Positions 8,601 to 41,167 of a stretch of 41,167 nucleotides of DNA are shown one piece after another. The notes under the pieces were generated by a model, which was not told where the DNA came from, ran no database searches, and saw nothing but the letters and a program-made list of their open reading frames with translations. Numbering within the stretch: the stretch's first letter is position 1; the number at the start of each line of letters is the position of its first letter. This DNA is from Candidatus Epulonipiscioides saccharophilum (GTDB taxonomy: Bacteria > Bacillota > Clostridia > Lachnospirales > Cellulosilyticaceae), in assembly GCA_002007295.1 (NCBI GenBank), contig LNZM01000090.1, forward strand, positions 1 through 41,167. The letters run 5' to 3'. A program made the translations under genes and the position numbers.

Positions 8601-11600
8601 AGGTAAATCCAAATTAGCTCTACAAGAAAAAGGCGACGACCCCGATGATCTTTTCGACGTTGCTCGAGCTATCAACTCTATTAGAGTGCGTGAACAACAA
8701 CTCTTGGCTGCTGCCCAATCCGGTTTAGTTAATACAGAAGCGCTTCGGTCATTATTAGCCAATGTTATGTCTGATAACCTAACTATCGGTCAATCTACTC
8801 AATACGGTGTTGGTGACATCGATGATCCGGCCACTAACCAAACCGATTCTGATAAAAAAATTAAGGTTATAGATCGACCTGATGATGAGCCAGAATATTC
8901 TTTCGAATATGTCGACGCTAACGTAAAATTTATTTCTTCTCAAGAATTTCAACAAATAGAAGATAGAATAGAAGATACAATCAATAAATTATTGGCCTTA
9001 ACCGATAACCAAGTAGATGAAGACATTGCCATAAAACCACTCCCAACTTCCCTACTCCCTCCGTCACTTCGTGACACCTCCCTCGGAGAAGGAGGTAGAA
9101 GCCGTAGTATAGAACACAATGAAGTCTCCCAATTAAAACTTCAATTAGAAGATGCCTACAATTTATTATCAGAAGATAATTTAAAAGTCGGTTCAGCAAA
9201 TCTTTATGGAGAGTATGAAGATATACCTAGCGATAAAGAAGGAGCATCGTTAACTCAACGTATTTACTCTCTTCGTCGTCCAACTATGATATCTCCGGAT
9301 AAAGAAGCTATGATGATCGATACTATCCAAATATTAAACGAAGATCCTTCTAATGTTCAGTCCGCTATTCAATATGTAAGAACGACCGAGGATAAAACCG
9401 AATTAGTCAATGCTCTAGAATTTGCCGAAAGTTTGACTGTCGATAATTATACTGATCCATTCGATGTGTCTACCGCATTGTTAAGGTTAAAACGTGCTCA
9501 ACGAAAAGTTTTGCAGGGCGAAATCGATACTCCTAGCAATTATGAAGATTTAATTAAACTAATAGATTATGCTAATTCTCTACGAGCTATAGTGGGTGCG
9601 GGACTGTCCCCCTCCGGGAGGGGGATGTCAGCGAAGCTGACAGGGGGAGAATACGTTTATACTACAAATGCTTTAGCTCTAAACGATTTTGATACCCAAC
9701 TAGATATCGCTCAAAAATCTCTACTAAAATCTAATGGATCTGACGAAATTGCTTCGGCTATAAATAATTTACAAGCTGCTATTCAGCAATTTATACCTCA
9801 GCTAAAATGGGATACGGATCACTCTTTAACTATCGATGACTTGAGTGAATTATCTTTTTCTCACGCTAATACTAATGACTTAATTCAGGATTTCCAAATA
9901 GAAAAATCTATCAATCCAGATACTAGTAAAGAGATCTATGTTATTAAAATGCCCGTCGGAACCAATGCTTTTGCTATAGACTTAAACTTTAATTTAGGAT
10001 TATCCGAGGATCAATATGCCGAAGTAATTACAGATTTGGACGATGAAAATATTTTTGAAGATGATTCTAATAAATATAGCATAGCAATATCCGAGTTCCA
10101 ATATACTAACCCAACGATTGAAATTGAAAACTCTATGCTAAAAATTCATGACCTACGAACTTTGGCCGAAAATCAATTAACAATAAAATTAATGCACCAA
10201 TTTATTAGTCCGGATATGTCCATAGAATATCCATCTATAGAACGAGAGATCGTGTATAAATTCGAGGTGGCTAACACAGCAGAGACCAGCGATCTACTTA
10301 GTAGATTATCTTATGCTAACAAACTAATAACGGATTTAGAAGTTATCACCGATAAATCTATATTCGAATCCGAACAATTAGGATCCGAAGAGAATCCAAT
10401 TCACAAAGGTATTCGCTTTATTACACAAAGCAATGAAAAGATTTTGCGAGAAGCTCTAATCCAAGCCAATAACATGAAAGACGATCTACTACCTGATAAA
10501 CGGATATTAGCAGAAACAATCACCAACCTAACCCATGCTTTAGAAAGCATCGATTTGGGAGAGACAAGTAAACCAGAAATATACGAGCTGGAAAATGTAG
10601 AGAAGCTAAACAAACTAATAACAGATACACAATCATTACTCACCAAAGGTTCTTGGCCTTTTGGCCCGGTTAATCCAACACAAGAACCATGGTTAGAACA
10701 ATCCCTGGACGATAATTTAGACGATATTTCAGCCCAAGATTTATACAATGAATTGATCGTAGCTAATACTTATTATCATACACTTCAAGATGCTTACAAT
10801 ATCGAAGAAAGAATATCCGAATTAACTAAACGATCCGAGCAATTTGCTGATGCTTTAATGTGGAAAAATGGCCAAACTTTAGATCTCGAATCGCTAGAAA
10901 TATTAACTATAGCTGGCCAACCTATGCAAGGTGTAAATAATTCTGAATCGAAAATTGCTTGGGCGGATACCGGTTGGTCTCCAATAATGGACGAAAATAA
11001 CGAACCTACATGGCCGAATGAGTATGAACAGTTTGCTAAAATTTATCTTCCAGCTGGGTGTAATGAATTTTTATTAAAGGTAGCCGGAAAAGAAAGTGTG
11101 ATTGTAGAACCGATCCCTAAAGAGGACGAAGGTATATTCATAGAATCGGACGGATCCATAAAAATTGAAAATGTAAGTAACTTGAAAACAACCGAGGGTA
11201 CAGTGGATATAAGATTATCTAAAGCCATCGATGATTTAAAAGTATCTAAAGTTGTGAAATTTAAAATAGATATTGCTGACGATATTAGCTTGTCCGATAT
11301 TATTGCTACTGCTAAAGAAATGATGAGAGGCTTAAAAGTTGTTCCGAATAGTGTAATGTCAGAATACGAAGATTTAGATTTTGAAGAAAAAGTTCATAAA
11401 GGAACTAAATTTATCACGGTAGAAAATATGCAAACATTGCGTAGCGCTTTAAATGAAGCTGAAAAGAATCTTGAATTAGGAAATAATTTTGGGGCTGAAG
11501 CATTACAAATAGCGTTGGGTAAAATTCATGTAGGTAAAGCTCCCATCCCAACCCCGGATGAAATCAACGAGCTAACCACTAAACATTTGAACAAATTAGA

Positions 11601-25776: not shown

Positions 25777-27696
25777 GTGATACTAGATAACATTCGATTC
25801 GCAGCCCTAAAGGCTATACACGAACAACAGATAAACGACAATAACTCTAATTCTGAGAAGGTTGATTTAATGAAAAGTCGTATGGCTAAACAGCACCAAA
25901 AATTTGTCGCTAAAGCTCAAGCCCAAAATGAGGAGTCCGTATCGGCGGATGTCGATCCAATTTCCAATTCCGATATGGATAATTTAGATGATCCTCATTA
26001 CGATGAATTCGATAACCCTCCTTATGTTCGCGACGATGAAGAGCAAGAAGCCTTTCTTCTCGCTTTAGAAAAAGAAATCCAATTTAAAACAGAACGTAAC
26101 CGTGCTATCCGAGAAGCCGAACCTAAAGAGCTAGATCCTAAAACTGAAAATAGAGTAAATTTCGAAGACCTACGCTTTGAACAAGAAATACTCTACTCTC
26201 AAAAATTGCGCATCTATGAGCTAAAACTTCGCTACCAGCAAGAACATGGTAAAGATCTAGACATCGACCAAGCTCTTCTATATGAACAAGAATTAGCAAA
26301 AAAAATACAACGAGAACAAACATTAGAGACTAAACAAGAAATACGCTACAAACAAGTACTAGAACGTGAAAAAGAACTGCTCCAGCAACAAGCACAATCC
26401 TTAGCCAAAGAAAAAGCACAAAAACTAGAGCCAGAATTAAACATAAAATTAGCCTCAGAACTAAAGTCAGAATTAAACATAAATTTAGCCCCTAAACTAG
26501 AGCCAGAATTAAACATAAAATTAGCCTCAGAACTAATAAAATTAACCCCTAAACTAGAGCCTGAATTAAACGTAAAACTAGCCCCTGAATTAGAGCCAGA
26601 ATTAAACATAAATTTAGCCCCTAAACTAGAGCCTGAATTAAACATAAAATTAGCCTCAGAACTAATAAAATTAACCCCTGAACTAGAGTCTGAATTAGAT
26701 GTAAAACTAACCCCTGAACTGGAGCCTGAATTAAACACAAAATTAGCTCCAGAACTAGAGTCTGAATTAAACACAAAATTAGCTCCAGAACTAGAGTCTG
26801 AATTAAACACAAAATTAACTCCAGAACTAGAGTCTGAATTAAACACAAAATTAACTCCAGAACTAGATTCAGAATTAAACATAAAATTAGCTCCAGAACT
26901 AGACTCAGACCCAGAACTTCAATCTTTAGAATATGAAGCAAAACGACTAGCCGAAGCTAAAAGACAAGAACAAGAAAAAAAATGGATGGCCAAGATTGCA
27001 GAAATAGAAGCAGACCCAGAATTTCAATATTTAGAATATGAAGCAAAACGATTAGCACGACTAACCGAAGCTAAAAGACAAGAACAAAAAAGAAAATGGA
27101 TGGCCATGAATACAAAAATAGAAGCTGAATTACAAGCCAAAGCACGAGAAAAAGAATTACAAGCCAAAGCACGAGAAAAAGAATTGCAAGCCGAGGTACA
27201 AGAAAAAGAATTACAAGCCGAGGTACAAGAAAAAGAATTGCAAGCCGAGGTACCAGAAAAAGAATTACAAGCTAAAGCACGAGAAAAAAAATTACAAGAT
27301 GAGGCACGAGAAAAAGAAATGCGCAATAAAGAAGTAGAACAAATAGCCAAACAACTAAACTTAGAGCTAGACAGTGGTATGAACTATAGAGAAGTTATAG
27401 AATTAGCACTAAAATTACGCTCTCAAAAAGAACAGGGACAAGAACTAGGGCCGGAACTAGAACTAGAAATACAACGTGTAATAGAAAATGGACTAAAACA
27501 AGTTGTGGAACAAGCAATGAAAAACATCCAAGGTACTAATTCTAAATCCTCTCCAAAATCTGATGAAGGTTATGCCTCAATGGCTGATGTAAACTTCGTA
27601 ATGAATAATTTCAAAAGATTTTTGGAGCATAATATTGCTAACATTTACAATAATAGTGTGGGTAACAGTGGGCATGAGCATGATGACGAGAGATAA
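25777..27696 (+). CDS. Repetitive charged coiled-coil protein of unknown function
   Basis: 639 residues starting at GTG 25777, supported by AAGGAG at 25763-25768. No signal peptide or membrane segment is seen, so a cytoplasmic location is likely. Residues 1-215 are charged helical sequence rich in Glu, Lys and Gln. Residues about 216-378 consist of a tandem 12-residue unit of the type LEPELNTKLAPE. Residues about 385-450 hold two diverged copies of a roughly 37-residue helical unit (LEYEAKRLAEAKRQEQ, KWMAK). Residues about 451-515 repeat an 8-residue unit (EKELQAKA-type). The C-terminal 100 residues are less repetitive and end GHEHDDER. It follows the giant gene by 132 bp on the same strand and may be cotranscribed. 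I recognise no family; a scaffold or filament-type role would be a guess. Confidence 0.85.
   Translation: MILDNIRFAALKAIHEQQINDNNSNSEKVDLMKSRMAKQHQKFVAKAQAQNEESVSADVDPISNSDMDNLDDPHYDEFDNPPYVRDDEEQEAFLLALEKEIQFKTERNRAIREAEPKELDPKTENRVNFEDLRFEQEILYSQKLRIYELKLRYQQEHGKDLDIDQALLYEQELAKKIQREQTLETKQEIRYKQVLEREKELLQQQAQSLAKEKAQKLEPELNIKLASELKSELNINLAPKLEPELNIKLASELIKLTPKLEPELNVKLAPELEPELNINLAPKLEPELNIKLASELIKLTPELESELDVKLTPELEPELNTKLAPELESELNTKLAPELESELNTKLTPELESELNTKLTPELDSELNIKLAPELDSDPELQSLEYEAKRLAEAKRQEQEKKWMAKIAEIEADPEFQYLEYEAKRLARLTEAKRQEQKRKWMAMNTKIEAELQAKAREKELQAKAREKELQAEVQEKELQAEVQEKELQAEVPEKELQAKAREKKLQDEAREKEMRNKEVEQIAKQLNLELDSGMNYREVIELALKLRSQKEQGQELGPELELEIQRVIENGLKQVVEQAMKNIQGTNSKSSPKSDEGYASMADVNFVMNNFKRFLEHNIANIYNNSVGNSGHEHDDER
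26421..26910 (+). repeat. 36-bp coding tandem repeat (12-residue unit)
   Basis: Units of about 36 bp around CTAGAGTCTGAATTAAACAC encode LE(P/S)ELN(I/T)KLAPE about a dozen times, with some irregular units that add KSELNINLAPK or lack part of the unit. Because the unit length is a multiple of three, other frames also stay open across it; those frames are shadows. Confidence 0.85.
27128..27320 (+). repeat. 24-bp coding tandem repeat (8-residue unit)
   Basis: About seven to eight units of 24 bp encode variants of KELQAKARE / KELQAEVQE. Neighbouring units are nearly identical at the DNA level, suggesting recent slippage or unequal exchange. Confidence 0.85.
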
Positions 27697-27708: not shown

Positions 27709-28013
27709 AACAATCTAAAAATTACCCCTTTCACTACCCCCTTTGTCTTCACAAAATTGTGGGACAGCAGTGCCCCCTCTAATTCCCTTCGTCACTTCGT
27801 GACACCTCTCTCCCGGATAGAGGCAAAGGTCAAGTGTGTCGCTTCGATCTACTCTATCCGTATAGTCATCCTCTCTGAGGAGGAAAGCCACGAAGTGGCA
27901 AGGTGGAGTAACGCTACCACCTTCCGAACCTCTCAGTCACTTCGTGATAGCTCTACTAAAAGGAGAGCCTATATGGAAGGTTTAAGTGTGCTGCTACCCT
28001 ACATGTCATACAT
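27709..28013. repeat. Repeat cluster after the coiled-coil gene
   Basis: This gap starts with AACAATCTAAAAATTACCCC (27709-27728), the inner part of the element-end motif also seen at 1874 and 37010. It then holds hairpin repeats in minus orientation: CTTCGTCACTTCGTGACACC near 27788, a variant near 27850-27900 with GCCACGAAGTGGC, and CAGTCACTTCGTGATAGCTC near 27946 followed by a CTACTAAAAGGAGAG hairpin. A frame at 27757-28023 crosses it but has no plausible ribosome binding site or protein-like composition. Confidence 0.65.
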
Positions 28014-28282
28014 GGGAACTTAAGAAAATTAACTATGTCACTTATAACTTTTTTATACAGATCACATAAGCAACTACAACTTGAAGTCACGCTTTCTCCC
28101 TCCGTCCGCTTCGCGGCCACCTCCCTCCCGGAGGGAGGCACCGTTGTCCCGTAATTTTGTGAAGACGGAGGGGCACACCAAGCAGTCACTGAGTGAGGGG
28201 CACAACGTGTAGCGAAATAAACTAAAGGGGAGCAGGTTGCCCGCACTCTTAGTTAGCTTTGCCAAAAGATTCTTAAGTGCCC
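28014..28282 (-). mobile_element. MITE-like element, longer inverted copy
   Basis: It is bounded by GGGAACTTAAGAA (28014-28026) and TTCTTAAGTGCCC (28270-28282, one mismatch). Read on the minus strand it matches the 2260-2400 copy at both ends and flanks and across GTTGTAGTTGCTTATGTGATC. It carries about 128 bp more in the middle, including a palindromic repeat with stem GTCCGC-TTC-GCGGCC and a CCTCCCTCCGGGAGGGAGG hairpin. It has no coding capacity. It may approximate the undeleted form. Confidence 0.7.
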
Positions 28283-33314: not shown

Positions 33315-33560
33315 ACTATGCACGCTTTCTCTCTCTTGAATGGAGGTCAAGGTCAAGTGCAAGACTTCATTCATCTCAAATTAAATGATCATTATCTATT
33401 TCCGTTATATAGAGACAGCTCCCATAGAAAACAAAATTGCGAGAGAGGTGTCAGCGGAGTTGATGTAGGGAGAAAGCGTGCATACAAGTTTTTGTTACTT
33501 TTAAATAAATTATAATTTTGCACGTTCGCATTCTGCTTCTGTCATCAAAGGTCAAAGCTA
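33315..33560 (+). repeat. Dispersed palindromic repeat, copies between SLH gene and RNase Z gene
   Basis: A minus-orientation fragment GCACGCTTTCTCTCTC starts at about 33319. A plus-orientation copy spans about 33420-33560 with ACAGCTCCCATAGAAAACAA, a decayed hairpin GTCAGC-GGA-GTTGAT, GTAGGGAGAAAGCGTGC and the AT-rich tail that matches 2090-2160. The short frame at 33312-33515 is made of this repeat. Confidence 0.7.
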
Positions 33561-40749: not shown

Positions 40750-40966
40750 CTTTACGGCTTATCTGGTAATATAAGTATATTAAAGCATAATTGCGATAAT
40801 TTCAATAGATATATCGAAAATATAAAAGTAAATTATTCCATGTACGTGTAAGTTAATGTAAAGTATAGTATAAGAGAGAGTAAGTTACTTTACATATTAA
40901 ATTTAAGTTTGAATACAGTACATAATATATAAAATACGAAAAAGGTATTAAAGATTATCTTAATAA
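40750..40966. other. AT-rich non-coding stretch with an inverted repeat
   Basis: No gene is seen. ATGTAAAGTA (40856-40865) and TACTTTACAT (40886-40895) form a perfect 10-bp inverted repeat around a 20-base loop, which could be an operator or a hairpin. Confidence 0.5.
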
Positions 40967-41167
40967 AAAGTAAGTTTCTAAAGATTGACTATTATTATAG
41001 AAGATAAACTTCTAAAGATTGACTATTAATTTATAGAAGATAAGCTTCTAAAGATGGACTATTATATATGAAGATAAGCTTCTAAAGATGGACTATTATA
41101 TATGAAGATAAGCTTCTAAAGATGGACTATTATATATGAAGATAAGCTTCTAAAGATGGACTATTAT
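40967..41167 (+). repeat. 34-bp tandem repeat array, continuing past the window
   Basis: The unit AAGATAAGCTTCTAAAGATG plus GACTATTATATATG (34 bp) occurs from 41037 on without change (41037-41070, 41071-41104, 41105-41138, then 41139 to the edge). Two diverged units precede it (about 40967-41000 and 41001-41036). There are no spacers between units. Confidence 0.93.

Follow-up and report, generated by a model that had tools for sequence, protein, structure and literature searches.

Among the closest described systems are the Rickettsia palindromic elements (RPEs), which, in the available excerpts of the literature on them, are fused in frame in Rickettsia genes and dispersed both between genes and in unrelated protein genes, where they are thought to be tolerated (PMC2229807, PMC10969869; Ogata et al. 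2000/2002). REPs belonging to the GTAG and CGTC super-families occur inside genes in several species, and in the excerpted part of the paper describing them the authors argue for flexible linkers or loops (PMC3733652). The excerpts of the Epulopiscium type B genome paper (PMC3416734) contain no mention of such repeats, and the open-licence PMC literature yielded no report of the element described here in Epulopiscium or Lachnospiraceae.

We analysed a stretch of 41,167 nucleotides (the window; contig LNZM01000090.1) from a 3.19-Mb genome that belongs to the Ca. Epulonipiscium genus, Lachnospirales. Members of this genus have giant cells and are highly polyploid, and the host organism is a relative of the surgeonfish symbiont. 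The plus strand of the window carries, at 2647 to 25644, the gene for a giant secreted repeat protein of 7665 aa, and within it lie two palindromic blocks. The second, at 9608 to 9651 on the plus strand, is a copy of a non-coding, two-hairpin REP/MITE-like repeat of about 44 nt that has multiplied in this lineage, very probably with gene-disrupting copies lost and tolerated ones staying. Two further kinds of repeat were seen in the window. The ORF at 25777 to 27696 contains in-frame tandem repeats with periods of 36 nt (26350 to 26952) and 27 nt (27093 to 27345), and a 34-nt tandem repeat occupies 40966 to 41167, up to the window end.

The stretch 9606 to 9655 contains two abutting perfect inverted repeats and a purine tail. 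Hairpin 1 (9607 to 9625, plus strand) is a perfect 9-bp inverted repeat with arms at 9607 to 9615 and 9617 to 9625, 1 nt apart; hairpin 2 (9626 to 9642, plus strand) pairs TGTCAGC with GCTGACA (arms 9626 to 9632 and 9636 to 9642) around the loop GAA, which places the copy in the GTCAGC sub-family with a 3-nt loop. Numbered from the ORF start at 2647, the codons at 9604 to 9651 of the plus strand are read as LSPSGRGMSAKLTGGE. A sequence-only reading had proposed an in-frame palindromic insertion at 9606 to 9655 that keeps both hairpins, and we agree on each point: the sequence is present, it is translated within the 7665-aa ORF, it is a genome-wide repeat, and the two inverted repeats stand side by side. 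The tail was misassigned, however. It had been taken for an intergenic consensus AGGGGGAGAA(T/A), but the consensus in this genome is GGAGGGAGAAAGCG, and a AGGGGGAG-type tail is seen in G008, a genome of the same family. The block bears the compensating changes TCCCCC/GGGGGA and AGGGGGAG, and no second copy of this sub-type was found in its own genome at up to 3 mismatches. The sub-type gave no match at up to 3 mismatches in 390 genomes of the class (own genome excluded), and was found in one of 23 other genomes of the family (G008), at two places. No Rfam family matched the window at the gathering score.

Three patterns together recovered at least 155 copies of the repeat in the genome (77 + 19 + 59), a lower bound because relaxing the pattern brings in further copies, such as one or more on contig C27; reversed-pattern controls for all three sets gave no match. 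The commonest intergenic form is CCTCCCTCCGGGAGGGAGG-TGTCAGC-loop-GCTGAC-GGAGGGAGAAAGCG, and profile matches span 44 to 48 positions with a conserved core of about 44 nt. An nhmmer DNA profile made from complete-flank copies, with both in-gene copies of the giant gene excluded, recovered the block at 9608 to 9651 with E=5.2e-7 and the first block (9052 to 9094, minus strand) with E=1.8e-13, and found no third match in the giant gene up to E=10. A blastn search with the block (E<=1) gave 43 matches in this genome, of which the top non-self one is at 3.4e-10. In the window, nhmmer placed intergenic copies on the plus strand at 2036 to 2082 (E=2e-12), 2278 to 2322 (E=4.8e-12), 80 to 115 (E=2.7e-9, with hairpin 1 replaced) and 33433 to 33476 (E=4.2e-6), and on the minus strand at 27780 to 27822 (E=9.2e-9, GTCAC sub-family) and 28092 to 28137 (E=6.8e-8). 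The core pattern was counted 91 times in this genome, against 0, 0, 1 and 0 times in the congeners G001 to G004 and once in G008, and there were no copies in the remaining 53 of 58 relatives. The repeat has multiplied specifically in this lineage of the genus.

Copies in this genome are mosaics of modules. Some are chimaeric, with a GTCAC-type element at the hairpin 2 loop of a GTCAGC-type one (for example at C44:2874, C51:6281, C94:12628 and C136:31616), and one identical GTCAC-in-GTCAGC composite was found again at several places. There are also head-to-tail arrays at C110:5475-5873, C27:5285-5595 and C81:6257-6479, with periods of 94, 72 and 99 nt.

The unit that carries the block (9538 to 9813, plus strand; aa 2298 to 2389) is a three-helix repeat unit, as defined by an iterated profile and an AlphaFold model; the profile finds 100 such degenerate units in the giant protein and its two orthologs. 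These units had been called FIVAR-like. No Pfam family matched the 7665-aa protein at E<=0.1, so the label stays a resemblance. The unit had no structural neighbours at E<=0.001, and the best ones were three-helix staphylococcal complement-inhibitor domains at E of 0.27 or higher. An AlphaFold2 model of the unit, built from 72 aligned units, has a mean pLDDT of 79.5 and sets the block at residues 31 to 46, between a helix (9 to 28) and a strand (46 to 50), with a mean pLDDT of 57 over residues 31 to 40. The model agrees with the earlier placement of the block in a loop before the strand, and the block is accordingly predicted to occupy a flexible loop between helix 1 and the strand of the three-helix unit.

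Two congeners, G002 and G004, encode giant orthologs whose open frames span 6151 and 6204 aa. Relative to both, the window protein has 14 additional residues precisely where the block lies, with the order of the flanks kept over 480 residues at 28% identity, and the two ortholog loci had no match to the repeat profile up to E=10. The empty-site comparison in related genomes thus finds the block absent, and the loop 14 aa shorter. As the orthologs are just 28% identical, it does not give a base-precise empty site. The first block, compared with the same orthologs, gives a split gap, with 9 + 1 additional residues in the window protein. An insertion would be contradicted if the block were an ordinary part of the unit in homologues; the orthologous units are without it, but loop length is variable in sister units. 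In an alignment of ten units with hand-chosen ends, which included two near-identical orthologs and excluded a mis-cut fragment (W2), the equivalent loop ranges from 11 to 29 aa. The block-bearing loop, at 24 aa, is therefore not abnormal in length, and the case for an insertion rests on the repeat identity together with the ortholog comparison. These support the view that a dispersed element was inserted here in frame, in what is predicted to be a loop.

Five of the 155 copies are embedded in long ORFs (150 aa or more, with 30 aa or more to either side of the copy), and all five are in frame; alignments assign them to loops, to a linker or to an acidic tail. Besides the two in the giant gene, one (C37:8630) is in an acidic tail, in a protein whose open frame spans 2974 aa, one of GTCAC type (C160:23568) is in a conserved 501-aa protein, and one of GTCAC type (C15:11173) is in the linker between the ParB_N and HTH_ParB domains of a ParB-like protein. 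For the C160 protein, four of five homolog loci were informative (G001, G002, G004 and G008, the G002 and G004 loci being nearly identical, and the fifth alignment stopping at the block): both flanks align and 8 to 11 residues are missing at the block. The ParB-like block is absent from the interdomain linker in all six homolog loci compared, which were the six best-scoring loci covering the site and came from four genomes (26 of 59 genomes, own included, were matched). The gaps there are 11 or 12 residues in four loci, 17 in another and 6 in the last, which has additional residues later in the alignment. For a filled/empty comparison at the DNA level, the nearby fragments of this gene in the same genome have decayed and leave the insertion site uncovered; these ParB-like fragments lie at C15:11761-12641, downstream of the repeat-bearing copy. 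At the C37 site four of five loci align and are 2 or 6 residues shorter, in a low-complexity stretch.

An alternative is that a pre-existing loop of the unit was overwritten by the repeat through recombination or replacement, with no site being split. Loop replacement would fit the block loop lying within the range of its sister units as well as the modular make-up of the repeats. It would also fit the shorter gains at other sites. At the GTCAC-type in-gene copies (9052 to 9094, C15:11173 and C160:23568) the net gain is about 10 to 11 residues for an element of about 14 codons, so that these sites are not cases of simple addition or have undergone later indels. At 9608 to 9651, however, the net gain of 42 nt (14 aa) nearly equals the 44 nt of the whole element, and the orthologs have a short loop of 11 aa, which makes replacement unlikely here.

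It is also conceivable that the block has been retained for a function, either as variation in a surface loop or as an mRNA hairpin acting as a brake on the giant protein's translation. Both of its hairpins are intact, and this one gene holds two of the five in-gene copies (binomial 5e-4, post hoc). But the block is absent from the orthologs, the model has low confidence in the loop, the RNA fold z-score of the sense strand is only -1.97, and the giant gene is long and repetitive, so that tolerance is to be expected. We consider a retained function improbable, and the insert would be neutral for the giant protein.

The two in-gene blocks had been seen as one element inserted twice in opposite orientations, which raised the question of whether the element is built for openness in more than one frame or whether only tolerated insertions survive. 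The orientations are indeed opposite. The first block (9052 to 9094, minus strand, also recovered by pattern match) belongs to the sister sub-family with a GTCAC stem, and the two are therefore not one element in two orientations. Selection for readability in many frames, as in a protein-coding palindrome that spreads through genes, could draw on the four of six frames that are open in the block, and on the in-gene copies coming solely from the two more open sub-families (none of the five from the 77 copies with a four-nt loop; hypergeometric 0.03). But the mean number of open frames (of six) in the three sets is 2.9, 4.0 and 3.8, below the 3.8, 4.4 and 4.4 of their dinucleotide shuffles, and 96% of the shuffles of the block itself have at least as many open frames as it does. 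Six-frame translation therefore shows no enrichment of open frames. In addition, the in-gene copies are read in differing frames and orientations in different genes (C15 and C160 share one), no peptide is conserved across the five of them, and 150 of the 155 copies are outside long ORFs. The shuffles and the differing frames led us to reject an element built for openness, and we hold this kind of selection to be very improbable. The second option fits better: against the five of 155 copies in long ORFs stand 1373 of 1968 random 25-nt stretches (70%), taken from the same fetched stretches at least 150 nt away from any copy, and the five are in loops, a linker and an acidic tail. With no enrichment of open frames and with frames and orientations that differ between genes, survivorship of tolerated insertions is the supported explanation of the in-gene copies. 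That the assembly joined two stretches at a repeat, which the at least 155 copies and 166 contigs might invite, can be practically dismissed, as both the frame and the order of the conserved units agree with the orthologs to the left and right of the block.

In the survivorship explanation, copies of the palindromic repeat of about 44 nt would land at many places, by transposition or copying; those that disrupt genes would be lost, presumably through purifying selection, which would account for the depletion from genes; and the copies surviving in genes would be those in loops, linkers or tails where the frame is kept open. The copy at 9608 to 9651 would in this way have lengthened, by about 14 residues, the loop that joins helix 1 to the strand in one three-helix unit of the giant secreted protein.

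As to how the repeat spreads, no complete transposase for it was found in the genome, which is 92% complete and has one 42-position fragment of Y1_Tnp (PF01797). The element ends, over the 155 copies, have CGTC 9 times and GTAG 3 times at the 5' side, and GTAG twice and CGTC 0 times at the 3' side; GTAG/CGTC REP tags do not mark them. The fragment-sized Y1_Tnp and the absence of the tags speak against a RAYT-driven REP. Of 24 GTCAC copies left after a rough filter against composites, which let some composites through, 7 are flanked by TA at either end, and this hints at TA duplication in that sub-family without amounting to a clean target-site duplication; TA on both sides is absent at 9608 to 9651. 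A search of a plasmid collection gave one weak match (30 nt at 93%, in Vescimonas fastidiosa, where it falls between annotated genes) and a phage search gave none, and a plasmid or phage origin of the repeat was discarded on these results.

The locus documents a case in Firmicutes, outside Rickettsiales, of a short dispersed palindrome inserted in coding sequence, with insert-free homologs for several genes. It yields a prediction that can be tested across strains, namely wide insertion with survival limited to loops and linkers, and the repeat family may be used for genome comparison within this uncultured genus. A bolder proposal is that in this giant, highly polyploid lineage a newly multiplied palindrome steadily supplies very large surface proteins with new loops, in which case such proteins would change repeatedly by in-frame insertion and not by rare accident; we regard this as improbable.

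Set against the excerpts of the papers on known systems, the element resembles RPEs in being inserted in frame in unrelated genes whose insert-free orthologs have conserved flanks (the giant gene, C160 and the ParB-like gene). It differs from them in length (about 44 bp, versus 105 to 150 bp) and in the share of copies in genes (5 of 155 in long ORFs, versus nearly half). A conserved peptide is reported for RPEs, whereas here there is none, frames differ and open frames are not enriched. Like the intragenic REPs it is a short, high-copy palindrome with a minority of copies in ORFs, but its ends are not marked by GTAG or CGTC and two different hairpins stand in tandem instead of one (PMC3733652). 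With small TA-ended bacterial MITEs (Correia, ERIC, RUP, RPE; PMC2229807) it shares TA boundaries in part of the GTCAC sub-family; unlike them, it has TA on both sides in only 7 of 24 copies, no established terminal inverted repeats and no parent transposase that we could find. Since harmless-looking palindromes within genes are known in other bacteria, the block is a new example and not a new phenomenon: it belongs to a new element family with a known behaviour.
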